64,000 nt of DNA from Nymphaea colorata (taxonomy: Eukaryota; Streptophyta; Magnoliopsida; Nymphaeales; Nymphaeaceae): NCBI RefSeq assembly GCF_008831285.2, contig NC_045138.2:14954571-15018570 (forward strand). Direction: 5' to 3'. Below, piece after piece: positions 15,402 to 52,566 of this stretch. The position numbers and the translations under genes were made by a program. The notes below the pieces were generated by a model. It searched no databases and was not told the origin of the DNA. It saw nothing but the letters and a program-made list of their open reading frames with translations. The number at the start of each line of letters is the position of its first letter. Position 1 is the first letter of the stretch.

Positions 15402-15518
15402 ATGGGGGATTTTGAGCTTGCAGCAGAGATTCTAGCAGCTCTGGTTCAGTCAGCTGGAAAGGCCGATCTTTCAAATGGGTCCGGTGATTGTTCATCTCAG
15501 CTTTCGAGGATTAGATAA
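15402..15518 (+). other. Short ORF, possible exon scrap, crossing the duplication edge
   Basis: A 38-codon frame starting MGDFELAAEILAALVQSAG and ending SRIR reads like protein, with a helical, alanine-rich start. I cannot assign a family and no partner exons are visible upstream. Its second half lies inside the duplicated segment that starts at 15466; the corresponding part at 38305 is instead joined to the LRAT first codons. It may be a gene remnant or chance. Confidence 0.25.
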
Positions 15519-15984
15519 GTGTCATGGTTTGATGGAGACGATGGCTGAAACGGTCTACATGGCACATGTTCTAGTTCTTCCATTACTCATACTCCCGGAG
15601 GTGAAGGCTAGTCTCTAGAGTTTGTTTATCAGGAAAGGCTATACGAGAGGTTAGGTGGGTGTAGAGAATCATTCCATTTAGAGAAAAGATATGGAAATCA
15701 GGAGAAACCATGACCAACCCATTTGGAACCCTAAATTCATTATCTTTTCCTTGTTAACCATTTTTGTTATTGATAATTAAACTGGTCGGCATGCACCAGA
15801 AGCTTGGATGAATAGAATAAAGATGTCATGACTCAGTTTCAAATGCTTCCAAAAGAATGGCCCCCTTTTGCTTGCTTTTCGTTTTTTCTTTTTTTATTTA
15901 ACAGAACAAGATGCCTAAGCATGTTCTTATTGATGAAACTACATGGTTAGAATCGTACCTCTCTTTCATGAGTTTGACAGGTAA

Positions 15985-17816
15985 CTATGACCCTTTAATT
16001 TCTACCACAACATGGGGACCTTGACTACCATAATCTGAATTAACATTAGCCAGGTGTTCAGATTTTGCTGTGGCATTGGCTGGCATATGGTTCTCGAAGG
16101 TGGCACGAACTGACAATTCTTCGACACTCGAGACGATAGCGTCGATTCGGCCCAAAACCTCTATGAGTATAGATGCCACATTTGCAAGAGGGAGTAGGTC
16201 CATTAGAGCTGGGCCTGTAACAGTGTCTCCATGTGCAGTACGAAAATTGGGATGAGCTTGAGGTAGCGACTTGAGGGCCGTATACAGTTCCATGACGGCA
16301 TCATTGGCAGAGTCGATCAGGGGCTCAATGGAGGACGGTCTGTTCATGCTGTCTATGTCCATTGAGAGCTGCCTCAAGACCATTGATGACAATGAGCTTA
16401 CCTTTAAGCATGGCTCCTTTAGTTGTTGACGAAGAGCTTTGGGTGCCTACATATGGAGAAAAACACTCATCCTCGCTATTTTCAGTTGTTACTATTCTTC
16501 TGCATATGTCACTTCAAAGAATATGCAGCAACAGGCACATGCCTCTTCCTCTCTTATTATTATAAATTTCAAAAGCGCAGATGACAGAGAGAGATTTTAC
16601 TTTATATTCTGAGTTGGTTGCTGCATTGAGTGCTTCAACACAGTAAGCACAAGCCCGAGTGGCTGTCCCGACCTTCAGGTATTGCTTCCATGGATGAAGA
16701 AACCTAAACCGCCCATGTGCAGGTTCCCATCTAGCAAGGTTTGCCTTGAAAAAACATGGGCATTCTTTAGTTAGATAAAAAGTTCATTCACTCCATAGAA
16801 AAAGCTCAAATAAATAGAAATAATGCGTTTCTCACCTAATGAGCCACACCTGCATGTATAGTTAACGGACAACATACACTTGCATACACATGCATGCACA
16901 CGCACACACATTGGCACACACAAAAGAGAGATACATCTATGCGGTGCTCGTTCTCGGATGATGGTGTACCATTAATTTAGTGATCTGTGATGAATTTTTC
17001 AAATTGAAAAAAAAAAACTACTTATAGTTGCAGGATGAGTAATGGATAACGTCCACCGGAAATCTAAACATTTGTATTGATGTATTTGGTTACTCACCAG
17101 CAATTCCTCTTTGGCCTTCGAATCAAGCACCGTTCTGTATCCTTGAAGACCAGGGGTATCTTTAGTTTTGAGTTCGTCCCCTTCTTCCTCTTCATTAAAG
17201 TACTCCTCGACACAACCTGAAATTCCACATTTCATACTTCAGAGCCTCATAGGTCTTCGATTGAAAATTGATTATAAAGCAGAGATAAAGATGAAAAAGC
17301 AAGTTCAGGCCTAAAGGTTTCTCGGTTTATAGTTTCTCCACCTGTCTGGGGCATAAATTTAAAATTTTTGAATTGAAAAACTTCCAGATTTTTTATCGTC
17401 TCAAATCGGCATAATATGGTAGAGGCCAGCTTACTCCTAGCAAGCTTGTCTGCCCAAGAAAGGTGCTCAGAAGTTGGCCACAGGAAAGTCATTATATAGA
17501 TTTTATATTTTTAGTTGGCATGCATGGTGAATATATTTCTCAATGCTTATGTTCTCAGACTCCATATAGAACTCCTGGAATCCGCATACTAAGAAAATAT
17601 GGCCACCACCATCAGGCACTTGGTTAATACAATTAGACAACTAATCAAATTTGCTGTAGGTAAAGCACTATCTCAGAAGGATGGATGAGAGCTACAATTT
17701 TGAGTTCACAACTTCTATTCTCAACCTTACTTTATGATGCATTTTCTTGCACTATCTACTTTAGTCGTGTACCCAAAAATGTTTTCATCATTCTTTATAC
17801 ATGTTTCATTTTTCTG

Positions 17817-17878
<62 letters not shown>

Positions 17879-17958
17879 TATGTATTTGTTAGAAAGAATA
17901 CATAGAGTAAGACAAGTTATTGATGCATGAGCCAATTTGGGAAGAGTGAATGGTCAAG

Positions 17959-17997
<39 letters not shown>

Positions 17998-19919
17998 TAG
18001 GTATGTATTTGTTAGAAAGAATACATAGAGTAAGACAAGTTATTGATGCATGAGCCAATTTGGGAAGAGTGAATGGTCAAGTTAAAAACTTGGAGGACAA
18101 AAACCAAGTCTCACAGGGCAAGAAATGAGTCTAAGCCCAAGCAATTCTCCTCATTGATTGATTGGCCTGGTTGGCGCAAGACTGGAATCAAATGAAATGG
18201 AATGAGTTTGCCAAACAAGTAAGAAAAAAAAAAAAGGAGAACTTAACCCAAAGAAGGACAGAAAATGGACCTTCCATTGAATCAGCAAGCGTCTGCAAGT
18301 TCTTGACAATTGAGTTGTGCAGATCTCCTCCTGCCCACACAGGACATATCACTATAGATACAATCAGGCACAGAGAGCCACCAACCGCTACAGTGGAGAC
18401 ACGTTCTTGTGCCAACTTGAATAGTTTCTCCTCTCGGTAGCTAGACACTGAGACCAGGCTGAATGTCAGCATGAAGATCAAGACTCCATAGTCATATTTA
18501 GCTTTAATCCCTGGAAAGAATCTTGAAAATGTAGACGCTGAAGCTGCACTCAGTTTGGTTAATATGTTCAATATTCAAACAGGTCAAGAGCAAAGAAAAT
18601 GTAAAGAAATTCAAAAGACCAAGTTTGTGATTTCTGCTAATTTTTCGTTCTGATTACCAAGTAGGAAGATGGAGGCACCAAGGATTATGGGTTCGCCTTT
18701 GTCCCCAGCAAGGCTGGCTATGTAATGGACGCCAAGACCCAGTGATCCAGCAACCAGAGTTCCAAATGCTCTGTTGAGACCTTTGCTCAAGGTTCCACCT
18801 TAGCCATTAAAAGAAGCTTGATATTAGCAATTTATATAAAAAAAAATCTTAAACAATATCAAAAAGTTTATGTAGTTCATTATAGAGGGTGTACATATGA
18901 TCTTAAAAGGAAATTAATAGTTCCATATTCCTAATATATTAACGCACTCTCATTTGGGCTCATGTGAAACGCACAAGACAAGGAGTTTTGACACATCACC
19001 AGCTTGATAAGAATTATAGCATCATCAAATGTAATTTAACACTGCAATCATATAGGGTAATGCTCAAAACCTTAATAACAAAAATTGCTACATTTTACAA
19101 CATCGCACACTGTTGGTGTATTTTCTTTTCCGAAAAATTCAACAGATGTGTCATCCTTACAATTATAAGGACATTGTGTTAGGCCCCAAAATTCTTACCA
19201 ATTCATTTTGGAAAATCCTTAAAGTTATTCTTCTAAGGCAGCAAGAAATAACGTAGACAAGGTTTTAGGTGACCTTCCATTTTTACTTTATGGTAGAGCA
19301 AAGGGAATCATGTTAAAAGCCCACGAATTTCGAAAAATAAATAAAAATTTATGCTGTTCTTTCAAGTTGAAATCAACTCGCTCATTTCATTAATAAAAGA
19401 AGAAAAACACTACCAATTTCAATCAAATCAATCTGGCTTAATTTCAATTTAAGAAGTAATGTGGAATGGTGAATGTTGACCATATTTCAAACAAAAAGTG
19501 TAGCCCATATAAAAAAACCGAAGAAATTTAAAGCTTATTTGTAAGATCAGAAACAAAAAATTTACTGTTAAACTAAACAACCACTACTTATTGACAGTGT
19601 TAATATCTGTTCTGGTTGTGGCAAATTAATGATCAAAGAATTGCAAGTATATATCTTAGCTACAAAAGCAGACTATTATGCAAGCAATTAAAGGTAATAG
19701 AAAACAAGCAGTAGGGACTCGCTTACCAACAGTATATTCAAAAACGACAGCTACTGTTATGACAGCCCACATGGCATTTCCTCCCATGCCTTCATAGAGA
19801 GGCCTCATGAAATAGAAGATCGTGACAATGGTGAGTGCGAGTCCCACCTTGAAGGCATGACAGATCCTTCTAGGATCGTCCCTACCCAATTTCAGCACCT
19901 TCTCCCATACAGTCTTCAT
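15985..19919 (-). CDS. ALMT: Aluminium-activated malate transporter, copy A (5' end damaged)
   Basis: Exons in transcript order: up to 19919-19727, 18798-18658, 18543-18271, 17216-17098, 16744-16601, 16446-15985. From the Met at 19919 the product is 443 residues. The membrane half holds several helices ([66 protein letters not shown]). The cytosolic half has the family WEP block ([16 protein letters not shown]). ALMTs are anion channels of the plasma membrane or tonoplast that pass malate and other anions. The likely original start is the ATG at 20045, but codon 17 of that frame is TGA (19995-19997) where copy B has GGA. Copy A can therefore make protein only from the internal Met at 19919, losing 42 residues before the first helix. 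It is either a slightly shortened gene or a young pseudogene. Confidence 0.82.
17822..18083. repeat. (TA)n runs within a 123-bp tandem duplication in an ALMT-A intron
   Basis: A (CA)(TA)n run to about 17876 is followed by an 83-bp segment starting aggtatgtatttgttag, then another (TA)n run, and the same segment again at 17999. Copy B has a single segment at 40978 with a hAT MITE beside it, so the doubling occurred in copy A after the duplication. Confidence 0.9.
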
Positions 19920-20046
19920 ACTTGTGCTAACTGTCGCTTTTGCGCTTGCAGCACCTCTAAAGATGCATGCAAAGATTCCAGCCTTTTGTTCCCCTCAAAC
20001 GCCCTTCAATGGAAATATTTCATTCATTGGCACACCCCAAACCATG

Positions 20047-20074
20047 GCTCTCTCTCTCTCTCTCTCTCTCTCTA
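20047..20074 (+). repeat. (CT)n microsatellite upstream of ALMT-A
   Basis: An uninterrupted CT run follows the ancestral ALMT start codon on the opposite strand, so it is a GA run in the ALMT leader. In copy B the matching place is interrupted (ctctctcgcttgctctct). Confidence 0.9.
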
Positions 20075-23000
20075 AAGGTTGTTTGGCTATCACCTAGGTG
20101 CCAAAGTGATATAAGAGACTGAATGTGCAGGTAGCCATTACTAGTAGCCATATATATACGTGTGTATGTGCATTCAAGGAATGGACATAGGAGAAAAGGT
20201 TGAGCGCTTTTGTGGATACTTTATGCTTTTGGCTTGTGTTCTTATGCACCGTACGGCTTGAAAACTGGTGTTTGCAGAAATTCAAGTCCTTTTAAGTGGG
20301 GATGACTCATCCAAAGTTTTTTGAGCAAGGAACTTTTTCCAGTACTTCTTGCGGTCCATCTAGGCCCTTCGTTGCCCAATTCTTCTGGTTCTTTCTGCTT
20401 TATGAATTTCTAGCTAGCTTTGTTGTTAATTCGGGAGATGTATTGTTCTTCAATATTACAGATACCAACCTGCATTTCTACTATTAAATCAGCTTGAGTC
20501 AGCCATTTTCAGATATATATTCTTCTTCTCTTGGCTTATTGCAGCATGAAACTGAATACTGTACACCAAAGCGATGATAAAATACAAGGATTGATTGAGA
20601 AATACATTCAGTTTCTAGTGTAGAAAAAGTACCCAGCTTTGACGTATTATATCATATATCCAAGCAAACTTGTATCTCAAACCTTACTGACATTAACTCA
20701 GCTGGAGAATTTGTGAAGGATGCTGCTGCATATGGATCTTGCGACCTAAGCTTTTTCATATTTAACTGCAGGCAGGAATACTTGTTTCAGAAACATGGAA
20801 AGTCAATTTTACGATCCAAAACCAATGTCCAATTGATTCAATTTTAGATGAGGTGCAGGACTAATATTCAAGAGATTCATGATCCATGCATTATTTATGA
20901 AGTTGGTCTAAGATAAAGAAAAATTGAGTTCCCATGAAGCTATACACTTATCAAATTCAGCATTACCTTCGTTAACGGCAAGCTCATCACCCTAACCAGG
21001 TTAGTCCATTTTTTGAGGTAATTTAGACAGCGCACCATATAGAAAATTGAAATCGACAGAATGACATGATCTTAAAGTGCCAAAAACGAGCCATTCTAAA
21101 AATGAGCCTGAAATAATTTTCTTGTTTCACCTTTGAAGATTAAAAGAAAAACATAGATGCTGACATGGTATGGGGTACTGAAGATGAGTTTGATATCAAT
21201 TTTCTTGAACTTTGAACATAAAGAGAAGGCACCAAGTAGACATTTTTTTCACATTTAGGTCACGAACATGAAACCAGGATCATGAAAAAATTACAAGAAG
21301 TTGCTGAATATTTAAGCAAATAACAAACCTTTTTAAAAGTTAGCAAATAGTCATTCAACTTTTAAGAGATGTTTCCAAAGAGCCGCCTGTAGGGAGAAGA
21401 AAATTATTTTTTGATATAAAATAAAATATACCTCCATAAACAACAATTCTTTACTTGCTGACAAAAGATAGTTTTGTCTTCAAGAAAGGTGTTTTTGTCT
21501 GTTTTATATAAAAAGTTAATATTTTTTTTTGTTGGTAAACGGGTCTTTGAGAATCTCCCTGTAAATTTTAAAAGTTGGGTGATACTTTGTTATTTGACCA
21601 ATGCCTCTTAAAGCAACCAAGATGAAACCATACTTTCAATCTTGGAGTACAGACAGTTCACAATAAGGCAGAAGCAATGGACGATGGACAAGGGACTAGT
21701 ACCAAGACATTTTCTTACTGGAATGCAACAATGAACAGAACAGGGGATAGCACAAATGGTCCTCATGGATCGACCAGTTTGAGGCATCTAAAAGACTCGA
21801 TGGTTTTTCTCATCCAGTCATCCTTTAGAAGTTAATTAAGTAAATTATTGTTTAAAGATCTGCATAGGAGACCTATTCCTGTTTTTCGTGTCGTTTTGGA
21901 ATTTGATTAATTAGTTGCATTTCCTAGAAGCATCCATTGTTATCCATCATTTTCCTTTTCTTTTTAGTCTCAATTCTTTTCCCATTGCTCCAACAGAAAG
22001 TGGCTACAGAAAATTTCCCAACTCTCCTCCTTCTTCATGGCTTGCAGCCTCTATTCCAAATCGCATATTCTTTTGTGATATATATATGTTCTTGACCAGA
22101 TAGGTATTGTAGTACCTTTATTACCTTTTGGTGGTGAGTATTGGGTTGTACTTCGCTTTCCATTTATTTCTCCCTCATGCTTTCCTACAAGCTTTCTTTA
22201 ATTGCTTCAATAGCTCCGACAGTTGGCATATAGAATTTGGGATGCCACTTAGTAGACTAGCCTGTATATCGAGATGTCTTCTCCTTTCTACCTCAACATT
22301 TTTAACTAAGCTAAAGGAACTAAATAAGCACCAACTTGACTAGAAGCCATTAGATCAACTTTCCAAGGTTGACATTCCCATGGCTTCATTCAAGTGGACT
22401 GGTGTAACATGCTTTTTCACCTTAGGCTAAACAGTTTAACTGCACTATAGGTGTATTCTTGTTGGCAGACACTGAGGTCAAAGTTGGATGAAAAAAAAAT
22501 AGAAGTTGACTCGGTTGGGTGGTAAGTTGGATCAGCCCCCAATAGGTTCTCCCAGGTGGCTGAGCTAGTGCTTAGATCTTATACATGGCATCTGCAAACT
22601 GTTAACAGATTTATGTTTCCTCCTCAAAATGGTGGTAGATGCAGTTTATTATTTTTTAAAATATTTAAAAAATGTTAAAAAGGACTTTTAAAACTACCGC
22701 CAACTTAGTGCCAACAGAAAAATTTATACTGAAAGAGTTTTTAGTAATCTTTGTCATTTCAAGTAGATCTAGAAGTTGGCAATATTCTAAACCATCCGAT
22801 TCCCTATTTATTCCCCTAAGGTATGGAGATAACCATCCCTCCTCTTCAAGACCCATGTTTTAAAAAAAATTAAAAAGAGATTGTTGTTGTTGCCATTTCT
22901 TTTTCTAATAGAAAGATTGATCACTAGTTATGATTACAAGCTAATTGGTGATTAGTTAACACAGGAGCATCAGACTAATGCAGAAGACGAGAAATTTTGG

Positions 23001-26000
23001 ATAATTCCATCATATACATTATTTGTCAAGCCATTCAGTTTGTCGTTGAATAATGACATGATCATTATATCTCTCTGAAACTTTAAACAGGTGTTGTCCA
23101 TAGTAATGCTACGATCCACTGTTTACAGAAGTGGCAGATTTTCTAGCATAGTCCTGCAAATGGAACAGAAAAGGTTATATCAAAAGGAACATTTGGATAG
23201 TTTTCTATTCACCACTAGATTAATCTAACTAGCTTGATATTCTCAGAGCATTAAGAGTAGTATTTTACTAAATATTTGTAAGTAATGATCCATTCTTCTG
23301 TTGTGCATTTATGAAGCATGATATTGGTGATGATACGTTCATAGTGATATCAATTGTGCCGGAAATTCTCTGGAAATTCTACTGCACTCGATGCAGATGG
23401 AAACCAAAGAACCTGTGAAGGAGAAGTTGTAGCTCATCTTCAGTAGTAACTCTCCTGTGAAAGATAATTTTCTTTCACCTTCTTGTTTCAAATTCTTAAG
23501 TGGATCTTTCTTGGCTCTGAAATTCTCAAAGTCTCCTAAAGCATGAAAGGAAATAACGATTTTGAATGGGATTGAGTACAAAAGAAGTTTATGATCGAAA
23601 GCAAAAGCAAATCCTGTTCTTTCTGCAAGTCTTTAGACCAAGTCCACTGGCAGTTGGATGGAGCACTTGTTGGAGATCTTTTCAGCAGTTTCTGTTCATA
23701 TTTTTTAATGGCCTTCAATGAAGATTATATTGGTCCAAGTCTCCTGCCCTCCAGTTTCGCTGGTACAAAATAATGACAGTAAACAGCTTCTGGTTGTGAG
23801 TTCCATACTGGCCTTCCTAAAAGTAAGAAGAGAATAGTTCTTGACCAAGAAACGACATCAAATCTTCAATTTCTAGGACTGGGTTATTCGCATCTTGAAG
23901 GATGAAGATTTTTATTCCAATATACCCCTACTTGGTTGTTAGACAACCAAAACTGTAAAGTTGGATGATGTTGGTCCAAATACTCATTTATTCCTCATCA
24001 GAATATAAAATAAATAAACAGCAACCATGTTTTTATAAGTGTTTAGATGATTGATGAACACTACATCAATCTTCTGAGCATGAAAAAACAGGTGAAGGGA
24101 ATTTTGGCATAAAATCTATATTCTGCTGCTTTATCAGTCCATCCTTTTAGATGCCTAGGTCTTTGGCATAAAGACAAGAAATCAAGTCTCCCCTTCAGTG
24201 CCTTTTGGACGGAGTGTAACAACAGCCACTGCCACTCTGCTTAACCACAACCATGCATAAAGAGGCTTTCTAGCCTATAGACATGCAAACTAAACAAAGG
24301 AATGTGGGTTGGAGGGTGATGAATGGTTGACAGTGGGTACCATTTGGTGAAAGCTTTTTATTTGATTGTGCTGCATCCACAAGTACTGTCTTCTGGTTAA
24401 TGGGATCCTGAGCCTTACTCCATTTTAAATTTGGTGAATGGTGCACATGTGATGCACACATTGAAGTCAGCCGTATTTTATTTCTTCTGCATCAGTTCTA
24501 ATGAGTGTCATCAACACGAAACAACCATATAAAGAAGTCGTACAAGTTGCAGCTGCTTTACCTTTGATTCTCGAGTTGAAGTGGTCTGTGTGCTTTGGCT
24601 GGTGCCCTGGAATCCATTTCAATTTCTGAAGGTCTCCATGCCTGCTGAGTGTCTTTGACACAAAAATATTGTTACAATCATTGGCAACCACCAGTTCCTT
24701 ACTGGCTGCTAAGTGACAAAAAACATGCATAGACATGCATATGCACACATGCATGCACAGGCGGTGGAGAATTAGGACAGGTGATACTTAGAACAGAAAG
24801 GCTCTTAGTCCTGCAACTGATGTGTTGCTGATTGCTAACGCGACCATATTGCTTGATACAAGGAAAAAAAAAAAAAAACGAAACCTCATTCTTTGAATCA
24901 TGTGCAGAGGAAAAAATGCTTCTTCATTTGCAACTTACCAACTACAAGAGATTGTCATGTTAAATATAAGGAAAAATATGAAGTAGCAAACAAGTAATGG
25001 GCCTTGGACCTTGATTAGTGTGGAGATGACAAGGGAACAGAGTATCTTAGCAGGCTTTTGATACCTTTGTGCAGCTGTTGAAGGGAATTCTTAAGTGAAG
25101 ACAGAGAAAAAGCTGTCTTGAGTACATGGTATTATATCACCAAGGATTTTGCTTTTATTGTTTGATTAAAGCATTTCATGAACATGGAACAACATGGAAC
25201 TGCCTTTCGTCACATGGTCAAAGCTAATGTACTCAGAGGAACCAGTGGTAGAGGCTTGTTATGGCCTGTCAGACTTAACCTGCTCTCCAACTATGTAAAG
25301 CTAATAGTACTTTGTCGTCAAGAAGGAAAACTGATTATAGGCATGTCAGCATGCAGCTAGAAAGGATGATTAACTCTTGGTTGCAGAAAGAAAAACTTAA
25401 GCATTTGGGCATATAGCATATCACAGAGTGCCCAACCTTTTTATTGAGAGAAATTCCTAAAGAATAAAAAAAATGTTAATTCTTGACATAAAATGGCACG
25501 GTACCTCTTGAAGACAAAACTACCTTGCGTCCGTCAAGGGAAGGAAGGGTAATGCCTTGGCAAGAGCATACTTTCGGTCATTTTAAATCAAAAATTGATA
25601 TTTTTTTTGTTAGAAAAGGGTAGACATAGTTTTGTAATTTTTTTCGATATTCTTTATATCTGGATGTATAACAGCATACAGAATCTGAAACAGTTAGCAA
25701 CTAGATGCCATCTTCTTGTTTCTCAGAACTGGCTAACAGATTTGAATTTGGGTTGAACATCTAATAAACCCAACAACCCAAAATCTCTATCAGATATGCG
25801 GATATGAGTTTAAATGTAGAGATTCATTTTAATGTTCTTTTATTACCTTTCAATACTTTAATTGATCTATTTTCGGTAACCAAAAAAAACATTTTTAAAG
25901 ACGAATAAACGCAAAAATCCTACATTCTCGTTTTCGATATTTGTAAAAAATTTCAAATTCGCATACTGAACCCAGTTGGATTCGCCTTCTCAGTGTATGG

Positions 26001-26099
26001 AGCATAGCTACTCAGCTCTGAAAGGGTTGATTTAAGGACCTAGGAATAATTTGACAAAGTTAAGATATTGAGGAACTCTTAAAGTTAAAAGCCCTACAT

Positions 26100-26258
26100 C
26101 AGGGGTGGAGCCAAGGGGAGGCCGGGAGAGGCCTGGCCTCACCTCATCTCAATTTTTTTTATTTTACATACAAAATTTAAAAAATATTATTTATCTTATA
26201 TAAAAGATTGAAAAAATTATAATTCGGCTTCAGTTAAAAATTCTTGACTCTACCCCTA
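26100..26258 (+). mobile_element. hAT-type MITE, 159 bp, with 8-bp target duplication
   Basis: The left terminus is CAGGGGTGGAGCCAAGG and the right end reads TTGACTCTACCCCTA, an imperfect inverted match. Flanking octamers are ccctacat (26092-26099) and ccctagat (26259-26266), one mismatch apart. An 8-bp duplication is the hAT superfamily signature. The element has no coding capacity and shares its AT-rich body with the copies at 671 and 7529. Confidence 0.82.
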
Positions 26259-27510
26259 CCCTAGATGAAGTGTTGCCTGCCATTCTACATTTCAAATTTG
26301 GTGGCAGGAAGAGTCTATATATACTTTGGGGAGGACGAGAGACGTCTGAATCGGAACTGGAAGAGCATAGAGGGAGCAAGTTACATTTTATGGCCCTTAA
26401 CAAGGGACTATGTGTTGCAGGATAAATTCAAAATGGCCCTACTAAGTTAACTGAAAGATCCTTCCCCGATAAAGGCAAAAGTAAAATTTACAAAATTATT
26501 AACAAGGGACTATGTGTTATAGTAAAATTTCACTGAAAGGTCAATTTCGTGAAATTCAGACTGATTTTTTTATATAAATTTTAAATGAAGACCACCTTAT
26601 GTGATTTTTTAATCTAGTCTCACACTTGTCATGAAAACTATATATGAAATGAAAGCCTGAAGTGGCTTTTCATGAATTTGAAAAAATAGAAAGCGTTACC
26701 AGCACCTTTTTTTAATATTTCCTTCTATAGCTAAACCACATTTTTATCCAAGTTTTTTAGCTTTTTAGGTTGAATAGAATTCACTCAAGATTTTATTGGC
26801 AGTTTCCGTAAAAGGTATGGTATATTTAAGAAAATTATGAAGAGTAGTCTCTCTTTTAAATTATAAGAAAAAAGTTCCTAAAATTGTGTTTTCTTCTTTA
26901 GTTTTTTCTAAAGGGAGTAGTTTTGTATTTTTTTGGGCCAATACGTATTACTATCCTTGGGCCGCCCTCGAACGCATAGTACAAGAGGCCTATACCGGTG
27001 ATTGTGTCACCGGTAAAACTTCCCAGCAGTGAGATGTCCCGCTGCCATGCTCACCGTTGGTCCGGCCCTCGGAACTGGCTACAGCAAGGGACCGCTGCCA
27101 GAAATATCCACACAAAGTGGGTTTTGTCGCCGGTAAACATACATATCGGAGAAAGAAATCACGGCTAAAACATTGTCTACCGGTGCAACAAATCTACATC
27201 TGTAGCCTGCTTTCATTTTATCAAAAAACAGAGACATAATAACAAAATAAGGTGCAATAAAATAAAATATAAATTAAAAATAACAGACAAACATCACAAG
27301 GCACAAACTAATTCAGCAAAAAAAGGTTATGGGCAGGGCTTTCAATTAATATTGGTGAATTTTCTTAGACATCACTCATCAATTATGGCTCTTCATGCAC
27401 CGGGTTCACCATGCTGGTCTCCTAGTTCAGGACTCAGCCCACTCGTCTTAAACCTTCACATAGTGCATATGACTTCTGCACATAAATGATCAAGACCCAC
27501 CTTAATTTAC

Positions 27511-27992
27511 CTCCACAAGTCCCACTTCTTCCATTGCTTCTGCAAACAGCATCTTCCATGGCAGAATCCACGAATAAACAATCACTTAATGAGTGTGAGA
27601 TGCTGAAAAGATCAATCCCATGATCATGCTTGTCATCACTCTTAAGTCTTAATTAGAAAGGCTACAGATACTTCAAGGTAGGTTTAATGTGAAATGAGAA
27701 AAAAGCAGCAGAACACTGACCTGCAGCGGAACCTGACATGAAGCTATCACTGCCAGGGGATGAAGGTTGAGTACAATGTGCAAGTGTTTGATACTGTCCT
27801 GCCTTGACTGCCATGTTCACTGCTAAACTTTCAATTTAGAAGGAGGGCAGGTCAACCATATTTGTGAGTCTGTAAATGCACAAACGAAATCTATATACAC
27901 TGAAGTACCTTCTCAGATCTCGTACGCTTATTTTTCTATCAAGAGAGCTTGGAACAAGTAGAAGTTCTTCTGGAACAGCTAATTGCAACACC
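27511..27992 (-). pseudogene. Coding-like exon fragments of an unrecognised gene
   Basis: Three minus-strand stretches look like exons bounded by splice signals. 27992-27909 reads VLQLAVPEELLLVPSS and onward. 27814-27721 reads MAVKAGQYQTLAHCTQ and onward. 27640-27511 reads SDDKHDHGIDLFSISHSL and onward. Their phases do not join cleanly and a stop lies between the first two. I infer a decayed or mis-joined gene and do not recognise the family. Confidence 0.3.

Positions 27993-40702: not shown

Positions 40703-40710
<8 letters not shown>

Positions 40711-40772
<62 letters not shown>
40711..40772. repeat. (GT)n(TA)n microsatellite in ALMT-B intron
   Basis: A short gtgtgtgcgtgtgtg stretch leads into about 30 TA units. 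It is the homologue of the TA run in copy A, and the MITE at 40777 inserted at its edge. Confidence 0.9.
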
Positions 40773-40775
<3 letters not shown>

Positions 40776-40776
40776 G

Positions 40777-40971
40777 CAGGGGCGGAGGGAGGGGGGGCCG
40801 CCTGGGCCTTGGCCCGGGTGAGCGCATGATTTTTTTTTTTAATATTGAAAAAATCAAATTTTTTTAGTTTGGCCTAACCTGTCGCTCTTCTTCACCCGAC
40901 CTATCGCTCTTCTTTGCCAGACCTGCGAACTGTTTGACCTGTCCTTGAAAAAAATCTTGGATCCGCCCTTG
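40777..40971 (+). mobile_element. hAT-type MITE, 195 bp, with 8-bp target duplication
   Basis: The left end CAGGGGCGGA and right end TCCGCCCTTG form inverted termini. Flanking octamers are tatacagg (40769-40776) and tatatagg (40972-40979), one mismatch apart. It is absent from the homologous site in copy A, so insertion post-dates the duplication. No coding capacity. Confidence 0.85.
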
Positions 40972-43648
40972 TATATAGGTATGTATTTGTTAGAAAGAAT
41001 ACATAGAGTAAGATAAGTTACTGATGCATGAGCCATTTTGTGAAGAGTGAATGGTCAAGTTGAAAACTTGGAGGACAAAAAGTCTCACGGGGCAAAAAAT
41101 GAGTCTAAGCCCAAGCAATTCTCCTCATTGATTGATTGATTGGCCTGGTTGGCGCAAGACTGGAATCAAATGAAATGGAATGAGTTTGCCAAACAAGTAA
41201 GAGAAAAAAAAGGGGGAACTTAACCCAAAGGAGGAGAAAATACGGACCTTCCAAAGAATCAGCAAGTGTCTGCAAGTTGACATTGAGTTGTGCAGATCTC
41301 CTCCTGCCCACGCAGGACATATCACTATAGACACAATCAAACACAAAGAGCCACCAACCACTACAGTGGAGACAAGTTCCCACGCCAACTTGAATAGTTT
41401 CTCCTCTCGAGACCAGGCTCAATGTCAGAATGAAGATCAAGGCTCCATAGTCATATTTGACTTTAATTTCTGGAAAGAATCTTGAAGTAGACGCTGAAGC
41501 TGCACTCAGTCGGGTTGATATGTTCAATATTCAAACAAACAGGTCAAGAGCAAAGAAAATGTAAAGAAATTCAGAAGACCAAGTTTGTGATTTCTGCTAA
41601 CTTTTCGTTCTGATTACCAAGTAAGAAGATGGAGGCACCAAGGATTATGGGTTCATCTTTTTCCCAGCAAGGCTGGCTATGTAATGGACTCCAAGACCCA
41701 GTGATCCAGCAACTAGAGTTCCAAATGCTCTGCTAAGACCTTTGCTTAAAGTTCCACCTTAGCCATTAAAAGAAGCTAGATATTAGCAATTTCTATAAAA
41801 AAAAATCTTAAACAATATCTAAAAGAGTTTATGTAGTTCATTATAGAAGGTGTACAGATGATCTTAAAAGAAAAATTAATAGTTCCATATTCCTAATATA
41901 TTAACGCACTCCCATTTGAGCTCATGTGAAATGCACTAAGACAAGGAGTTTTGAAGAATTATAGCATCATCAAATGTAATTTAACGCTGCAATCATTGGG
42001 TAATGCTCAAAACCTTAATAACAAAAATTGCTACATTTTACAACATCGCACACTCTTGATGTATTTTCCTTTCCGAAAAATTGAACAGATGTGTTATCCT
42101 TACAATTATAAGGACATATGTGTTAGGCCCCAAAATTCTTATCAATTCATTTTGGAAAATCCTTAAAGTTATTCTTCTAAGGGAGCATGAAATTATACCA
42201 ACCCACGTAGACAAGGCTTTAGGTGACCTTCCATTTTTACTTTATGGCAGAGCAAAGGGAATCATGTTAAAAGCCTGCGAACTTCAAAAATTTTTTTTTT
42301 TTGTTGCTGTTCTTTGAAGTTGAAATCCCCTCGTTCATTTCATTAATAAAAGAAGAAAAACACTGCCAATTTCAATCAAATCAATCTAGCTTAATTTCAA
42401 TTTTGTTAACCATATTTTAAACAAAAAGCGTAGCCCATATATAAAAAAAACCGAGAAATTTAAAACTGATTTTTAAGATCAGAAACAAAATCATTAAAAG
42501 CTCTTATACTGTTAAACTAGACAACTACTACTACTTATTGACAGAGTTAATATCTGTTGTTGTTGCGCCAAATTAATGATCAAAGAATTACAAGTATATA
42601 TCTTAGCTACAAAAGCGAACCATTATGCAAGCAATTAAAGGTAATAAGAAAACAAGCAGTAGGGACTCGCTTACCAACAATATATTAAAAAACGACAGCT
42701 ACTGTTATGACAGCCCACATGGCATTTCCTTCCATGCCTTCATAGAGAGGCCTCATGAAATAGAAGATCGTGACAATGGTGAGTGCGCACCTTGAAGGCA
42801 TGACATATTGTTCGCATCATCAAAATTTTTGGTATTTTGGTTTTTGAAATACTCGAAAAAAATGAGTTTTGTTTTGAAAATGAAAGATAAAGGGACTCAC
42901 TTGTCGATACGAGAATCAACCGTTCATGGCGCTTTTACCTGGAGTAATCAATCCAAGGGTTAATATCTATCATTGATGCATTTCATTTTTGCTTAAACAT
43001 CTTTTCATTTTATATGCGGTGTAGTGATTGAGAAAATGTTGAAGATTTCACGTTTGAAGACTTTGAGAAGTTCTTTGTAAATATTAAGAAAATTTTGGAG
43101 GTCTATTTTTGAAGTTGCTTTAGTGTTCTCTTAAGACTTTAAGTAGGTTTGAGATTTTGTTCTAATTCGGTTACCACTTAGTTAGAGTTTTATCTTCTCT
43201 TCCTTAAGTTCTTTGGAGTGGTGCTTGTGATCATCAATGATGTTAAGTAAGTGTAATGCATGAATGCATTAATCGTAGGTGATTAAAACATTCCTACCAC
43301 AACATTCGTCTAAAATGCATTCATACCATATCATACCTTTAAGTTTTTTGTTTTGATTGAGGTTGTGGACCATCAAGCCATGAATTCAATGTTGAGACAT
43401 TACTTGCGTTTTGGTCTTAGTGAAGTCGTTAAATGAAAATAATATTGAAAGAAAAATATGTTCAAAGGAATGAACGATAGAGTCCTAATCAAAAGAGAAA
43501 GATGGAGAAAAAAAAAGAGAAAAATATTTTGAAGATCAATAAATTAGAGATTTTAAGGTGAGGAAGAGGTACATACTTTTGTATGCATACATGTATATAT
43601 GAATATGTGTATATATGTGTACACATAATGCGATCACCTTGCGTGATT

Positions 43649-44152
43649 GCAAAATGCGATCGCGCAAGTGCGTATCGCGCGGTGCAAAAAAAATCTTTTT
43701 ATTTTTTAAATTAAATGAAATTCCATAAAATATATAAAAAATGTTATTTATATAGAAAGCATAATATATTTTTTATTTAAAATGTAAAAAAGGTTTTTCA
43801 AGTAAAAACATAAAAATTCACTTTTTTTGTTTAATTTATCTAAAAGGCATATAAAATATTTTTTTTTGGTTATAAAAGGTTGGTTGACTCCATTTTAAGC
43901 GACTCCGAACTCGCTCCAAATCCGATTTTGGTTTAGTCGGACGTCGACTCATTCGAGCATGCAACTTGGGATCAAAAAATGTTTTCGCGTGAGAAATGAG
44001 TTCTTAAAGCAAAGGGAAGGTCCGTGCATGCGCGACGCTCAAATTTTGTCGTTTCAAACTTGATTCGAATTTTGGGTCTGAAATGCTCAATTTGGATCTG
44101 AAATTGGGTTTTGTGTTTTAATAAAAGAGCGTATTATTTAAAAAAAATTGAG
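43649..44152 (+). repeat. Direct repeat 1 within the 3-kb insertion
   Basis: Pairs with 45306-45798. Shared landmarks are atctttttatttttt, gcataatatatttttt, ggtttttcaagtaaaaac, the actccattttaagcgactc block and gggaaggtccgtgca. Confidence 0.8.
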
Positions 44153-45305
44153 GGTGATTACAGATGTCCCTCTTTGTTACGTGCTAGCCGTGCTTAGTGA
44201 CAAAGATAAGCGCATCAAATTTTTCAAACAAAATATGTGCAAAGTGATGTCTCAGGTTACTCCCCCTCACTTCAATTGGTTGTTTGAGCTTGAATTGCAA
44301 GTTTAACCCCTTACATGCATGAGTTTGTCAATATTGAATTCAGGTTTAACCCTTTGAAATGAGTTGCCTTGGCTAGCATTGTAGGTTTGACCCCTTACCT
44401 ACGTGGGTTGCCTTCATATTGCAGGTTTACCTATTACCTGCATGGGTGGGTTGCTTCGAAAAGCCCTTGGCCAAACGGCCAAGTTGCGCTTGCTCCATAA
44501 GGTTTTTTTGTCTAATGACAAGGTTAAACAAGACTATATTCAAGCAATGAAACAACATGAAAATGAAATATTACTTCACATTCTCATGCTCTCAATGCCC
44601 TTAACAATAGTTTTTTGACTTTAAAATAGAGATTTTAGGCTATCTTATATGAATGAAGAAATGAATAAGGGAGAAAATGAAGAAACCAAAATAATGCTAT
44701 ATTCAATAAAAGAGAGAATATAATTCAATCATGAAATGAGCTTATCTTTCTACGATCCCGGTGCACTCTTGTATAGCTTCTTCACTCAAGAATAGAGATT
44801 TGAAGACTATAGCCATAGAGAGAGGAAGAAGGAAAAAAAAAAAAAAGGAAAAAAGTGGAATGAGATTTGGGTTACATACTTCTAAATGAGAAAGGCTTAG
44901 AGGAAATGAGCACCTTAGCTTTGATTGATCCTAGGTCTCATTGAGTGAAGCTCTATGATGATGACAACGTAGCCTTCAAGAGATCTTCGTGCTAGTTATT
45001 ACTCAAGACGGAGGAAAATAGGGGTATTTATAGAGAGTTTTAGAGCCAAAACTCAAAATTTGAATTTTTTTTTAATTTCACAATATTTTTATCCGAATTT
45101 CAAAAAATTTTGAATTATTTTCAAAAAATAGGTTTTGACTAAATGGGATAGGCCATTAGCCCTGCAAACACCCTTTTGAGGTGTGGGCAGGGCTATTGCG
45201 GTTTTCGCAAGAAAAGAGGAGGGGCTTGCACTGTTGCAGGCCCCGGTCGGGCGCTGTCGTGCGCCAGGCGCAACAGCGCACCGTAGCATCGCTGGCAATC
45301 GCGTA

Positions 45306-45798
45306 ATGCAATCGCCCTGCGCGATTGCATGTCGTGCGGAGAAAAAAAATCTTTTTATTTTTTTTAAGTTAAATGAAATTCAATAAAATATATATAAAAA
45401 TTATTTATATAGGAAGCATAATATATTTTTTTATTTAAATTGTAAAAAAGGTTTTTCAAGTAAAAACATAAAAATTCATTTTTTTGTTTAATTTATCTAA
45501 AAGGCATATAAAACAATTTCTTTTTAGTTATAAAAGGGTGGTCGACTCCATTTTGAGCGACTCAGAACTCACTCTAAATCCGATTTTGGTTTAGTCGGTT
45601 GTCAACTTGTTCGAGCGTGAGACTTGGGTTTAGAAATTGACGTGAGAAATGACTTCTTAAAGTGAAGGGAAGGTCCGTGCACACGCGACACTCAAATTTT
45701 GTCGTTTCCAACTTGATTCGAATTTTAGGTCTGAAATGCTCATCTGAACTTGTGTTTTGTGTTTTGATAAAAAAGCGTATTATTTAGAAATATTTGGG
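45306..45798 (+). repeat. Direct repeat 2 within the 3-kb insertion
   Basis: Second copy of 43649-44152 in the same orientation, somewhat diverged. It ends immediately before ALMT homology resumes, as a 3' LTR would. Confidence 0.8.
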
Positions 45799-47327
45799 GA
45801 CACCTTCTCCCATACAGTCTTCATACTTGTGCTTACTGTCGTTTTTGTGCTTGCAGCACCTCGAAAGATGCATGCAAAGATTCCATCCTTTTGTTCCCCT
45901 CCAACGCCCTTCAATGGAAATATTTCATTCGTTTGCACACATCAAACCATGGCTCTCTCGCTTGCTCTCTCTCTAAAGGTTGTTTGGTTATCACCTAGGT
46001 GTCAAAGTGATATATGAGAATGATATGCTTTTGGCTTGTGTTCTTATGCACCGTACGGCTTCAAAACTGGTGTTTGCAGAAATTGAAGTCCCTTTAAGTG
46101 GGGATGACTCATCCAAAGTTTTTTGAACGAGGAACTTTTTCCAGTACTTCCCACGGTCCATCTAGGCCCTTCGTTTCCCAATTCTTCTGGTTCCTTCTGC
46201 TTTATGAATTTCTAGCTAGCTTTGTTGTTAATTCGGGAGCTGTATTGTTCTTCAAATATTACAGATACCAACCTGCATTTCTACTATTAAATCAGCTTGA
46301 GTCTGCCATTTTCAGATATATATTCTTCTTTTCTTGGCTTATTGCAGCAAGAAACTGAATACTGTACACCAAACTGATGATAAAATACAAGGATTGATTG
46401 AGAAATACATTCAGTTTTAAGTGTAGAAAAAGTACCCAGCTTTGACGGATTGTATCATATATCCAAGCAAAATTGTTTCTCAAACGTTACTGACCTTAAC
46501 TCAGCTGGAGAATTTGTAAAGGATGCTGCTGCATATGGATCTTGCGACCTAAACTTTTTCATATTTAACTGCAAGCAGGAATAGTCGATTCAAAAACATG
46601 GAAAGTCAATTTTATGATCCAAAACCAACGTCCAATTAATACAACTTTAGATCCAATTATGAGAGGTGCAGGACTAATATTCAAGTGATTCATGGTCTAT
46701 GCCTTATTTATGAAGTTGGTCTATGACCAAGAAAAATTGAGTTCCCATGAAGCTATATGCTTATCAAATTCAGCAGTACCTTCCTTATCTTAAACGGCAA
46801 GGTCATCACCCTAACCAGGTTAGTCCATTTTTTGAGGAAATTTAGACAGCGCACGATACTGAAAATTGAAATAGACAGAATGACATGATCTTATAGTCAC
46901 AAAAACAAGCCATACTAAAAATGAGCCTGAAATAATTTTCTTGTTTCACCTTTGAAGATTAAAAGAAAACATAGATGCTTACATGGTTTGGGGTACTGCA
47001 AATGAGTTTGATATCAATTTTCTTGAACTTTGGACATAAAGAGAAGGCACCAAGTAGGCATTTTTTTCACATTTAGGTCACGAACATGATACCAGGATCA
47101 TGAAAAAATTTCAAGAAGTTGCTGAACGTTTAAGCAAATAACAAACCTTTTTAAAAGTTAGCAAATAGTCATTCAACTTTTAAGAGATGTTTCCAAGGAG
47201 CCGCCCGTAGGGAGAAGAAAATTATTTTTTGATATAAAATAAAATATACCTCCATAAACAACAGTTCTTTACTTGCTGACAAAAGATAGTTTTGTCTTCA
47301 AGAAAGGTGCTTTAGTCAGTCTCATAT

Positions 47328-48350
47328 AGGTTTTGATGTGCACCACCACGTAAAAATGATTAGACTCAAATCACATTCAATTAAAATAAAAGATTTCAAG
47401 GACTCACATACAGAATGGTCTACACCAGTTAAGACAGTAACTCGTGGAGCTAATGGGGACTGCAACTTCACCCTCAACCAGCCTTGCAATTTTGAGTTTT
47501 ATCTTTTGCGTTTTAAACGCAAACTGACACCCATCTGCAAATGCCTAAAAGAATATACTTTTCCCTGTAATTTTTCCTCCTTTGCAAGTAGCGTTAAAAT
47601 TACGCGATATTTTTCTCTTTTGTTTTGTTTTTTTGTAAGAAAATCGTGACTTACTGGTCCACGCTCTTCTATTTATATCTTTTTCATCGCAGTTTGCGGC
47701 AACAATATTTCTGTCTACTTTGCAGCAGATCAACTTTCTTCCTTTTGAGGAAAAAATAGGACGGACGTAAACCGTCCAGTTTCTTCTTATTTAACTTAAT
47801 GTCTATCTAACTGGTGTAAGTGGAAGTCAGTAAGTGGAAGCGGACACCATAGTATTACTGACTTCCACTTAACACCAGTTAGACATTAAGTTAAATAAGA
47901 AGAAACTTGACGGTTTACGTCCGTCCTATTTTTTCCTCAAAAGGAAGAAAGTTGATCTGCTGCAAAGTAGACAGAAATATTGTTGCCGCAAACTGCGATG
48001 AAAAAGATATAAATAGAAGAGCGTGGACCAGTAAGTCACGATTTTCTTAAAAAAAAACAAAACAAAAGAGAAAAATATCGCGTAATTTTAACGCTACTTG
48101 CAAAGGAGGAAAAATTACAGGGAAAAGTATATTCTTTTAGGTATTTGCAGATGAGTGTCAGTTTGCGTTTAAAACGCAAAAGATAAAACTCAAAATTGCA
48201 AGGCTGGTTGAGGGTGAAGTTGCAGTGCCCCATTAGCTCCACGAGTTACTGTCTTAACTGGTGTAGACCATTCTGTATGTGAGTCCTTGACATCGGATGT
48301 GATTTGAGTCTAATCATTTTTATGTGGTGGTGCACATCAAACCTAACCTC
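47328..48350. repeat. Giant inverted repeat (hairpin), arms about 0.5 kb
   Basis: The left arm runs from ggttttgatgtgcaccacca to about 47840. The right arm from about 47862 to 48350 is its near-perfect reverse complement, around a short loop near 47842-47860. Visible arm differences are few, for example an extra aattaaaataaaagattt stretch in the left arm near 47380. Each arm contains a TATAAATA box (in agatataaatagaagagcg) facing outward toward the arm ends, and a palindrome ttttgcgttttaaacgcaaa. No coding sequence or target duplication is evident. It could be a foldback or MULE-like element or an inverted-duplication product. Confidence 0.9.
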
Positions 48351-48449
48351 CTACTGAAAAGAGAAGACGTCCAACAAATAGCTTTCTTTTTGCCAAAAAG
48401 AAGGCTATTTCTTGGTCGTATAACCCAGCCCCAACTAAAGAGAAATCTT

Positions 48450-48511
48450 TTGATTTAATAGTAGGAATGCAGGTTGGTATCTGTAAAATTTGAAGAACAA
48501 TACAGCTCCCG
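48450..48511 (-). repeat. Inverted scrap of the ALMT-B upstream region
   Basis: This is the reverse complement of about 46234-46294. It shares the gggagctgtattg variant of copy B rather than gggagatg of copy A, so it derives from copy B. Confidence 0.8.
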
Positions 48512-48953: not shown

Positions 48954-49110
48954 AGAAATTTCTGGTTTTGTCATTGTTTGTGGTCAAACTTAGTTTGACT
49001 TCTTGAACAAAGTTATGTGAGGATATAAAACAAGAAATTTCTGGTTTTGTCATTGTTTGTGGTCAAACTTAGTTTGACTTCTTGAACAAAGTTATGTGAG
49101 GATATAAGGA
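48954..49110. repeat. 79-bp tandem duplication, two units
   Basis: The unit beginning agaaatttctggttttgtc recurs 79 bases later almost unchanged. It includes the palindromic core agaaatttct. Confidence 0.9.
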
Positions 49111-49439
49111 TGTCAATATAATTGATCTGAGTAGTATATTTGATTGAAACATATCAAAAACTAGCTAGCTTTCTACAACACAACCCATGCATCAAGCTGG
49201 CGGACCGCTAGTGTCTGCCATTGATCTGATCCATCCATTCCAAGGACTTATGTCGATTTCGGCTGAAGCATGGTGCGAACTCTCACCCACATACTCACAC
49301 TCTCTCTTTTTATTACATAAATAACATGGATTCCTCCAGCTGTGAGAGGAATCCCTCTCACACATGCAACCCAATGTCTTTTTTTTTTTTAGTTTGGGCT
49401 TTGTTAATGAGGAGGATGAGAATCCAGTGCTTTATACAT

Positions 49440-49446
49440 ATATACA

Positions 49447-49516
<70 letters not shown>
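49440..49516. repeat. (CA)n(TA)n microsatellite
   Basis: A compound simple repeat of CA units followed by about 25 TA units. No gene nearby uses it. Confidence 0.95.
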
Positions 49517-49520
<4 letters not shown>

Positions 49521-50564
49521 TTACAGATTTTTCCAATCTAAGTTTAAACTTAAAATCTTCAGTCCTCAGCACACGACTCTATACAATATATATATACACT
49601 CATTTTCTCTTTTGGATTAGTGTACAAAGAAGGCAAATGTAAAACAAATTTAATAGCCCATGCTTGAGAAAATAAAAATAATAATAGTGCATCTATTAAT
49701 TCTCCAACCAGCCACTCTCCACAGCCACCCACCTCCAACTTCCAAAATAAAAACACAAAATAAGATTTATCTTGACTTTAAAAATAAAAAATAAAAAAAG
49801 AGAACAAGAATTTCTAATTTCTTCCAAAAAACTTCTATCTTTTCACTCAAAATTTTTAGACTAAAAGTAAGCAAAGGAACATCAATGCCTTAGCTTGCCT
49901 CCCTTGATAAAATCAAATAGAAGTGCTTCTTTTCTTCTATTTAGCTCAAGCAAACTACACTATAAACTAAAGTTGCCTCACAATTATGTGTGTTAAAATT
50001 AAAATATAGAAAATAATACCTTCTTTTTTTCCTTTTAGTTGGGTTCAAGAGTTCTAAAATTACTCTAGAAAGGATTGAAACCTTATTAAAATGTGGTTAA
50101 AATTTGATTAGTAAAAAACTGTGTGGTCTAGGATGTTTAAAAAGGAAAGGGTTAATGAAGCTATATGCTTTTCTGGTGTGAAGTGGTTTTTAAGTTCTTG
50201 AGTAGATATTCTTGAAGGTTGAGGCTTCTTAACTGAATGAGATTCCTTATTTTAGAGATTAAATCATGAGCTCTTTGGCTGTAACGAATCAACCTCATGA
50301 TTCTGTAGGTCTGTCATCATCTTTTTTAATGTCAAATTAATAAATGTTTGCTATATTATGGTCAGATTCTTCTGTTGTTTTAGAGAAGTTTACTTCTATG
50401 GCTGTGAATTTCTGTCAATGGATATGGATGATGCTACTTTGCTTATTACAGAGTTTCCTCCACTGATATTTGGCATCGAAACATGCAGTTTTCTATTTAA
50501 TTTTTAGTTATTGTGTTTTTAAAATTGGCTTACATGTACAATCTCTATGCATGTGCTATTTCAG

Positions 50565-51758
50565 CAAGAGAGGGAACTCTATGAATATTCACCTAGTAAC
50601 GGAAAAATCATACATGTGAAAAGTGGAGAGCTTCTTGACACAACAATAGGTCAAGGTCACCCCTCATGCGAAATGGATCTTTGTCATGTGCACCAATAAA
50701 AAGGTTTATGAAGGCATGGTAAACTACTTTATTTATCTTCAGATTTAGCTATGAAAATTTTTTGGTGTTCTCGTTCTTCTTGTGAACCACTTGACTTTAA
50801 AACATTGTAATTTGCCTTGTATTATTGAAGATGCTTTTCATGTATCTCCCAATAAGAGTAAGCCTCGTCTATAGCTAAAAGGGACGTTGGTAGCTGAAGG
50901 CAGTTGCCTATTGATCTTAATAGTCTGTGTCTCCTTTCACACGGATAACTTGTTTCCTTGGATATAGGAAGTCTGAAATTGACAATCTACTTAACCTAAT
51001 AATCTCAGTTTTCGATTAAAAATCTGATGTTTTCTATCCGCCTGTATCTAGAAAAAAAGGGGGGAATTTCATCACTCCAGCTTTCTTACTGATGGTGTCA
51101 CTCTAGCGGCAGGAAGGCTGGCAGCAGAAAATGGTGTGCTCAAGGTACTTACCGGGAAATCTCGAGAAACACTTCAACTTCAGTCAATGGTTGTACCGTT
51201 GTAGGTTTTTTTTAAGAGAATTGGACTATTTGATGCCAACAACTCTATCTTCTCTACGTTTCTTCACTTTCAAGATTTTATTGATGGGCATCCTCTGATT
51301 TTAGATATCCTGTAATAACTGATAAGTTTCATGGGGTGGTAGATTTTCCACGTTAGTTTTTTAGAGTTTATCGAACAAAACCCGCCACATGCTTGAACAT
51401 TAGCCTTCGCTTGATACACTGCACAATGTTTGACTGAGAGATCTTACAACCCCAGGTTTTTCTTGATGGGTGGAAAGAGAATCTGTTAGTTGTAATAAAC
51501 CAGAAGCACTATGTATCTTCCTATAAATAACTGATGGCTGGGTTAAGTTTTTCAACCAATGCATTTTTTTTTTTTGCAGTGGCTCACATTTATAAGTTAT
51601 GTTCGGTTTCCTTTTTCGTATTGTAACTAATGCTGAATATTTGACTTTTGTTTCAGAAAGTGTCGGCTTATAGCGGGCACTATCGTCCCACTGATGAGAA
51701 TCTTGACATCTTCTTGGCATTTCTTAGAGAGAACGGTGTGAGCCTGGTCGAAGTGGAG
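50565..51758 (+). pseudogene. IQM: IQM-family calmodulin-binding protein relic (3' half)
   Basis: Three exon-like blocks remain: 50565-50718, 51052-51144 and 51657-51758. They give ELYEYSPSNGKIIHVKSGELL, then KWIFVMCTNKKVYEGM, then KKRGEFHHSSFLTDG with AAGRLAAENGVLK, then SGHYRPTDENLDIFLAFLREN. These match the conserved C-terminal half of plant IQM proteins (KWIFV, HSSFLAGG, AAGRL, SGHYRPT). The first block changes frame just before AAATGG at 50671, so KWIFV is out of frame with its start. No N-terminal part with the IQ motif was found upstream. The last donor is followed within about 27 bases by the LRAT promoter copy, with no terminal exon. I infer a truncated pseudogene. Confidence 0.82.
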
Positions 51759-51784
51759 GTTTGTATTTCTCCTGAACATTATAC

Positions 51785-52566
51785 TTTTAACATGTAGCAT
51801 AGATTTGAAATCTATGCTTTGAGATCTTCAAAACAGTGGCCTCGAATCTAAGATTGGAGGCTATTCTGCTATCAAGCACAACCTTAGTGTAATTAATCAC
51901 ATTTGGCTCTGCACTCAAATTTGGAAGTGAGTCCACTGGAAACTCGATAAACCGATCCATTGTTTTCAGAATAGATCATAAGTACAATTTCTTTTGACAG
52001 TTCTGATCTAATTTGATTTGATGAGTCAACTTCAATCTGGAGCAGACTTATTTCAGATAAATTCTCGTATTCACATTTAGCATGCGATTCAGTTCGCCAG
52101 CAATTTTTACAAGGAATTTAAATATATGTTCATTGCCACTTTCGATCAGCTCAATATATTTACGTCTTTCTAGACGCTTGTGTATCATCTCAGTATCTTG
52201 ATTTGTTTATAGTGAACCTGGATTTTTAGGTTCGGGTCTGAATCATGCCATGATGGTAACTTTTTCGGTTTTGATTAAGACATAATACTTAATAGAATCC
52301 AATCCAAATCCAGTCCTCTTTGTGAGTCCTGCTATTTTAAGTCGAGCGGATCCAGGAGCGTCCATTACGGATGGGTCGGTTCTGAACACGGTCCGATTCA
52401 TCAGGTAGCCTACCTGAAGAAGGAAAAGGTAAAGCGGACCCCAGCAAGATCCCTCCTCTCTCTCTGTCTCTCTGTCTCTCTGTGCGTGGAAGCGAAGAGT
52501 TTTGGGTTGGGAAGGAGAGAAGTGAGGAAGAAGATGGGGGTTCTTTCGAACAGGATCGATCGGGAG
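51785..52566 (+). repeat. LRAT-gene promoter and leader, unit-2 (complete gene) copy
   Basis: Matches 37535-38304. It includes the natural upstream region of the intact LRAT gene, with a CT-rich leader at about 52455-52482 and the first 11 codons. It contains the block from ttcggttttgattaagac to ccaaatccagtcctc that also occurs, diverged, upstream of calnexin at 29034-29085. Confidence 0.93.

Follow-up and report, generated by a model that had tools for sequence, protein, structure and literature searches.

How did two different pairs of homologous sequences come to share a single edge? The stretch of Nymphaea colorata DNA analysed here (the window: 64,000 nucleotides, positions 14,954,571 to 15,018,570 of contig NC_045138.2, assembly GCF_008831285.2) contains parts of an ALMT gene and of an LRAT-domain gene twice, and a copy of one meets a copy of the other at base 38304/38305. 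A preliminary description had read this arrangement as a head-to-tail duplication of a unit of about 22.8 kb (15466-38304), made by end joining or template switching. We conclude that the rearrangement is real and of a known and ordinary kind, plant genome turnover with a readable history. The history that we consider most likely, with a confidence that only just passes the midpoint, is an old, end-joined head-to-tail duplication whose second unit was later gutted, patched and partly converted.

Two homologies and their common edge

The features on which the argument depends, with the left and right copies called unit 1 and unit 2, are:

15466..21510, minus strand: ALMT block of unit 1, the ALMT-1 gene with its 3' flank and 5' upstream sequence (Pfam PF11744 on three open reading frames), homologous to 38305-47328
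21511..37534, no strand: centre present in unit 1 only, about 16 kb with calnexin and histone deacetylase; counterpart not found in unit 2
37535..38304, plus strand: truncated LRAT 5' copy (the stub), with upstream sequence, 5' leader and the first 33 coding bases
38304..38305, no strand: joint 1, where LRAT exon 1 adjoins ALMT 3' flank with an overlap of 1 bp (G)
38305..47326, minus strand: ALMT block of unit 2, the broken copy ALMT-2, with a frame shift and an insertion in exon 1
51784..51785, no strand: joint 2, where a decayed gene piece adjoins LRAT upstream sequence, with TTTT common to both
51785..52566, plus strand: LRAT 5' end at the full gene, partner of 37535-38304
52534..54642, plus strand: LRAT-domain gene (PF04970, E 1.3e-21), with its coding start at 52534 and a second large exon within 53944-54642

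Comparison of the window with itself by BLAST recovered the ALMT block as four colinear pieces (15465-21510 against 38304-47328). 38304-40763 matches 15465-17885 (88.8% with gaps), 40972-42808 matches 17994-19865 (87.8%), 45801-46023 matches 19896-20122 (90.7%, a 223-bp block) and 46024-47328 matches 20222-21510 (92.8%). On the LRAT side, 51785-52569 matches 37535-38307 (97.2%). The E-value is 0.0 for all blocks except the 223-bp one (5.8e-86), and thus the matches are not due to chance. Base-level inspection places the end of both homologies at 38304/38305, where the sequence reads ...CGGGAG/ATCTTTC. The LRAT copy at the full gene runs on as ...CGGGAG/GTCCTG at 52566/52567, and the ALMT flank of unit 1 is ...AAGGCCG/ATCTTTC at 15465/15466. 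The self-comparison, a check that the preliminary description had proposed, therefore reproduced both homologies and their edges: sequence from 38305 onward equals that from 15466 onward, 37535-38304 equals 51785-52566, and the shared base at the joint agrees with the earlier estimate of at most one.

A simple tandem segmental duplication leaves two neighbouring copies that point the same way and meet at a novel joint, and this is found here. Non-allelic homologous recombination (NAHR) is recognized by long repeats at both unit ends, and the overlap at joint 1 is 1 bp. Moreover, comparison of 12500-15465 with 15466-64000 gave a single match of 22 bases (E 0.003), and hence no long repeat on that side of the unit. 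Neither the window nor the 164 kb that contain it has any N, so joint 1 is not a scaffold gap.

The second ALMT copy looks local, because a search of the genome (407.8 Mb in 783 contigs, the window lying on contig 1, or C1, of 44.0 Mb) found no other long, close ALMT match that could have served as donor for ALMT-2 among the candidates, all 30 of which were scored. The sole other close copy is a 0.74-kb piece at C3:1290507-1291246 (88%), the remaining ALMT-like matches being more distant. Over 695 columns this piece is about equidistant from the two window copies (52 and 63 differences), which differ from each other at 47. Likewise, only 37535-38304 and 51785-52566 match most of this LRAT 5' sequence genome-wide.

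The order, the common edge, the near-blunt joint and the local origin all speak for the head-to-tail duplication first described, and the near-blunt joint, with a long repeat seen on neither side, is consistent with end joining or template switching. What is not supported is the picture of a simple event of a single age. The edges of the 22.8-kb unit are exact, but we infer its size, since about 70% of the unit is not visible in unit 2. Matched blocks account for 6578 of the 22839 bases of unit 1 and 6606 of the 14262 bases of unit 2, and the second copy is not colinear with the whole of the first, 21511-37534 having no match.

Unequal divergence of the two pairs

A single event predicts that the ALMT and LRAT pairs should be equally diverged, as the preliminary description expected. 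They are not. The ALMT pair differs at 254 of 3535 non-coding columns outside the 3' flank (7.2%), whereas the LRAT pair has 9 differences in 770 columns (1.2%) and two indels, a disagreement that the description had itself named as refuting its reading. Decay of methylated cytosines was considered as the source of this clash and rejected, as transversions alone still differ (150/5677 vs 5/770, p 0.0002).

The location of the differences is informative. Within the LRAT pair there are 7 in 300 columns and then 2 in 470 (p 0.03); the whole 770 bp is low, and no old flank is left within the pair. The 101 ALMT columns adjoining joint 1 contain 8 differences. This value sets them apart from the LRAT pair (p 0.00025) but not from the ALMT non-coding body (Fisher p 0.70); the ALMT side of joint 1 thus looks old, and we place the joint at the older date. 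Beyond these columns lies a stretch of the ALMT pair that is nearly identical:

15566..16020, no strand: low-divergence tract, 3 of 455 columns different; its partner in unit 2 starts at 38405

The profile of the ALMT pair thus runs from 8/101 beside the joint to 3/421 (15567-15987), 17/459 in the last exon (exon 6) and about 7% further on. The tract is the best low-rate segment of the pair, and, in shuffles that assume one rate along the pair, its scan value was reached in 0 of 1000 and its longest identical run (238 bp) in 0 of 2000. Even if the rate were halved, 3/421 would be a low count (P 1.6e-4). Gene conversion typically shows itself as a young tract set between older ones, and the ALMT pair has such near-identity between more diverged flanks. 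From the alignment we infer that 15566-16020 is a candidate for gene conversion between the ALMT copies. Conversion is described as making a duplication look younger and as commoner between close-lying paralogues (PMC3924837). It could also have rejuvenated the LRAT pair, although here it is an added step to reconcile the clash of ages. Whatever the cause, the locus is a clear case of divergence alone misdating tandem duplicates: homologies with one joint give values that are sixfold apart.

The interior of unit 2 and a proposed history

Where the middle of unit 1 would be expected, unit 2 contains other material, and ALMT-2 itself carries an insertion. These features, and the genes in the centre of unit 1, are:

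29960..31597, plus strand: calnexin-like reading frame (PF00262, E 4.5e-142)
34074..34715, plus strand: histone deacetylase reading frame, part of a gene (PF00850, E 1.8e-58)
42809..45800, no strand: insertion in ALMT-2 exon 1, with two direct repeats (43662-44153 and 45319-45799)
47327..48345, no strand: palindrome, 93.4% self-complementary, with TA on both sides
48451..48511, minus strand: inverted 61-bp copy of ALMT upstream sequence, with 2 mismatches to ALMT-2 and 3 plus a gap to ALMT-1
49022..50040, no strand: dispersed repeat with many partial copies, a lower bound, as 40 of 235 candidates were scored
50039..51784, plus strand: decayed gene piece, which stops at 51784 in an apparent intron

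The palindrome is probably a foldback-type element; it has one further, single-arm copy on C4. Its 93.4% is the self-BLAST value, and counts of its arms that took in columns outside the element were not used. The inverted 61-bp copy looks like a templated patch, and being slightly closer to ALMT-2 it gives a weak hint that patching came after duplication. The decayed gene piece is presumably from a gene for an IQ-motif (IQM-type) calmodulin-binding protein. It has two relatives 20 kb apart on C1, from which it differs at 140/1688 (C1:13671062-13672774) and 138/1669 positions (C1:13690813-13692487) and which differ from each other at 133/1628; shorter matches lie on C10, C6, C14, C8, C12 and C13. 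At the 5' edge of the ALMT block, 6 of 17 dispersed-repeat matches outside the locus cross 21510/21511 by at least 10 bases. Thus unit 1 looks unbroken at this point, and it is unit 2 that appears altered at 47327.

We propose that the locus arose in four steps. First, end joining or template switching would have produced a second, head-to-tail copy of 15466-38304, which reaches from ALMT 3' flank into LRAT exon 1, and would have left the observed order, edge and 1-bp overlap. Second, the extra LRAT 5' end would have persisted as a promoter-plus-start stub before ALMT-2 while ALMT-2 decayed, as its frame shift and insertion attest. Third, unit 2 would have lost its 16-kb middle, with the spare calnexin and deacetylase. 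The gap would have been filled by the palindrome, repeats, the inverted ALMT patch and the decayed gene piece, which are present in the sequence, and joined to LRAT upstream sequence at the 4-bp overlap of joint 2. Fourth, as the uneven divergence suggests, later gene conversion may have re-equalised two parts of the pair, some 455 bp of ALMT 3' flank and the 5' ends of LRAT. We propose no function for the result beyond that of a duplication relic. A promoter and start codon have nevertheless been left facing an ALMT pseudogene, and a chimeric or antisense transcript is conceivable; read into the ALMT-2 flank, the stub gives a predicted chimeric frame of 41 residues.

Duplication followed by loss explains the locality and orientation of the copies, yet it calls for the loss of 16 kb and for two conversion events, and several observations weigh against it. 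Comparison of 21511-37534 with 47329-51784 gave nothing above chance (best match 38 bases, E 0.005). The LRAT pair is too alike for the ALMT rate (P 3e-15), and remains so at half that rate, as if one LRAT copy were fully constrained (P 3e-5); conversion over nearly all 770 bp must therefore be assumed. The far boundary of the ALMT tract is soft, because the 17/459 in exon 6 may reflect constraint, and a conserved 3' flank may be an alternative cause of the whole tract. Lastly, the direct repeats inside the ALMT-2 insertion differ at 55/478 positions (11.5%), above the ALMT pair. Should these be the ends of a single element inserted after the duplication, rates would vary along this locus and all dating here would be rough.

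The coding pieces of ALMT-1 run from about 19994 to 15988 on the minus strand. Within 19994-20093 an in-frame stop interrupts ALMT-1 soon after a first possible Met, at a place where ALMT-2 is open, and thus the intactness of ALMT-1 is uncertain. A 123-bp tandem pair (17837-18084, 99%) begins in an AT run of ALMT-1; the tandem finder lists no counterpart in ALMT-2. Calnexin has one paralogue (C2:33905244-33906875, 88%), and the best match of the histone deacetylase frame elsewhere is at most 54%. The Pfam families named in the window are LHW-type bHLH, ALMT, calreticulin/calnexin, histone deacetylase and LRAT, and Rfam gave no matches in it at gathering thresholds.

Alternative histories and known systems

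A different account, which we consider possible but doubtful, holds that 13.5 kb of copied DNA (38305-51784, with ALMT-2, the palindrome, the repeat and the gene piece) went into a staggered break in LRAT, the fill-in of the stagger duplicating 0.77 kb of LRAT on both sides, and that unit 2 never had calnexin or deacetylase. This accounts for both joints and for the missing 16-kb middle without any loss. The interior is indeed a mosaic of pieces with relatives elsewhere, the ALMT copy (7.2%) and the gene piece (8.3%) are similarly diverged, and filler DNA carrying gene sequences is among the outcomes of synthesis-dependent break repair described in plants (PMC3445842). However, the main piece is a relative of ALMT-1, which lies 17 kb away in the same orientation, and this is unlikely for random filler. 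Furthermore, the event would be dated by the LRAT duplicates, whose age should equal that of the ALMT pair if ALMT-1 was the template but does not, and the genome-wide ALMT search found no donor block elsewhere. A target duplication of 0.77 kb also seems large from what is generally known.

It is rather improbable that two events are recorded, an old local ALMT duplication and, much later, insertion of the LRAT 5' end as filler in a break beside ALMT-2, with some of ALMT-2 repaired from ALMT-1 at the same time. The ages fit such a history directly: the LRAT pair (9/770) is statistically no different from the ALMT tract (3/421; Fisher p 0.56), and the ALMT non-coding body stands at 7.2%. But the start of the LRAT filler would have to coincide by chance with the end of the gene piece (51784/51785), unless a later deletion made this edge, and the 101 bases at joint 1 are old-like (8/101) and not fresh.

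We hold it very improbable that the assembly has joined two haplotypes end to end and that the LRAT pair are alleles. A difference of 1.2% is within the range generally seen between alleles, and the published N. colorata genome (409 Mb, 804 scaffolds, 14 pseudo-chromosomes) is a Canu assembly of PacBio reads (PMC7015852). In contrast, the 164 kb around the joint lacks any N, a blunt join of unlike sequences is not the usual error of overlap assembly as generally understood, and the ALMT copies are 7% apart with a 3-kb insertion.

Least credible of all is a reading of the sequence in which the LRAT promoter duplicate would drive a new antisense transcript, running out of the stub, across the joint and into the 3' end of ALMT-2, whose RNA could damp ALMT-1 because the ALMT-2 3' stretch is almost identical to the ALMT-1 3' flank (3/455), so that selection on a chimeric RNA gene, and not gene conversion, would explain the likeness on both sides of the joint amid decay; the 101 bases right after the joint, however, are not conserved (8/101).

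The surroundings of the duplicated genes contain further repeats. A dispersed motif family begins at the edge of both LRAT copies (37535-37580 and 51785-51830), and neither has the left context that is usual for the family. By eye, 12 of 14 members share, across the position corresponding to 37535, the left context that both units lack, so that the family does not show which of the two LRAT flanks is ancestral; the 14, all of which were fetched, are 17 rows minus the two window copies and C1:14983601, which matched another part of the query. A tandem pair of about 0.86 kb (85% identity) occupies 56368-58069, and 60938-62553 recurs whole or in part at three places within 54 kb rightward (80-91% identity). 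To the right of the window, C1:15039463-15050912 and C1:15061330-15072693 form an 11.5-kb direct duplication; with 98.5% identity, it indicates that the neighbourhood also contains a younger duplication.

LRAT paralogues lie at C13:5917949, on C10 and at C2:30283638. On C2, the LRAT-type gene (30283638-30284264) and an ALMT-like match (30303253-30304951) are 19 kb apart; on C13, an ALMT-like match is 0.44 Mb from the LRAT paralogue. The C2 neighbours hint that linkage of LRAT and ALMT may be old. As a guide to the ancestral order within the window the paralogues of LRAT, calnexin and deacetylase were set aside: the C2 order is unlike that of the window, the calnexin copy is at C2:33.9 Mb, and the comparison is not decisive. 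Among the titles listed in a literature search none is on this locus, and we make no wider claim.

The rearrangement can be compared with several known systems. Direct duplications reported for reversed ends of maize Ac (PMC3744419) are likewise tandem and without long homology, but no transposon end was seen here at 15466, 38304 or 52566, although no dedicated search was made. Gene fragments inserted as filler DNA by synthesis-dependent strand annealing in plants, as described in PMC3445842, resemble the present block in being made up of fragments that have relatives elsewhere, in microhomology at a joint and in a gene piece cut in an intron. Unlike them, the present block stands beside a local duplication and, at 13.5 kb with 0.77 kb duplicated at its flanks, would be large. 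Where duplicates undergo gene conversion, as presented in PMC3924837, a near-identical tract similarly lies between more diverged stretches, but here conversion would also have to cover the whole truncated promoter stub. Tandem duplications made by end joining or template switching (non-NAHR) differ from this locus in that most of its second unit is gone and replaced and its parts are of unequal apparent age; they share with it the head-to-tail order, the near-blunt joint of 1 bp and the lack of any long flanking repeat seen.

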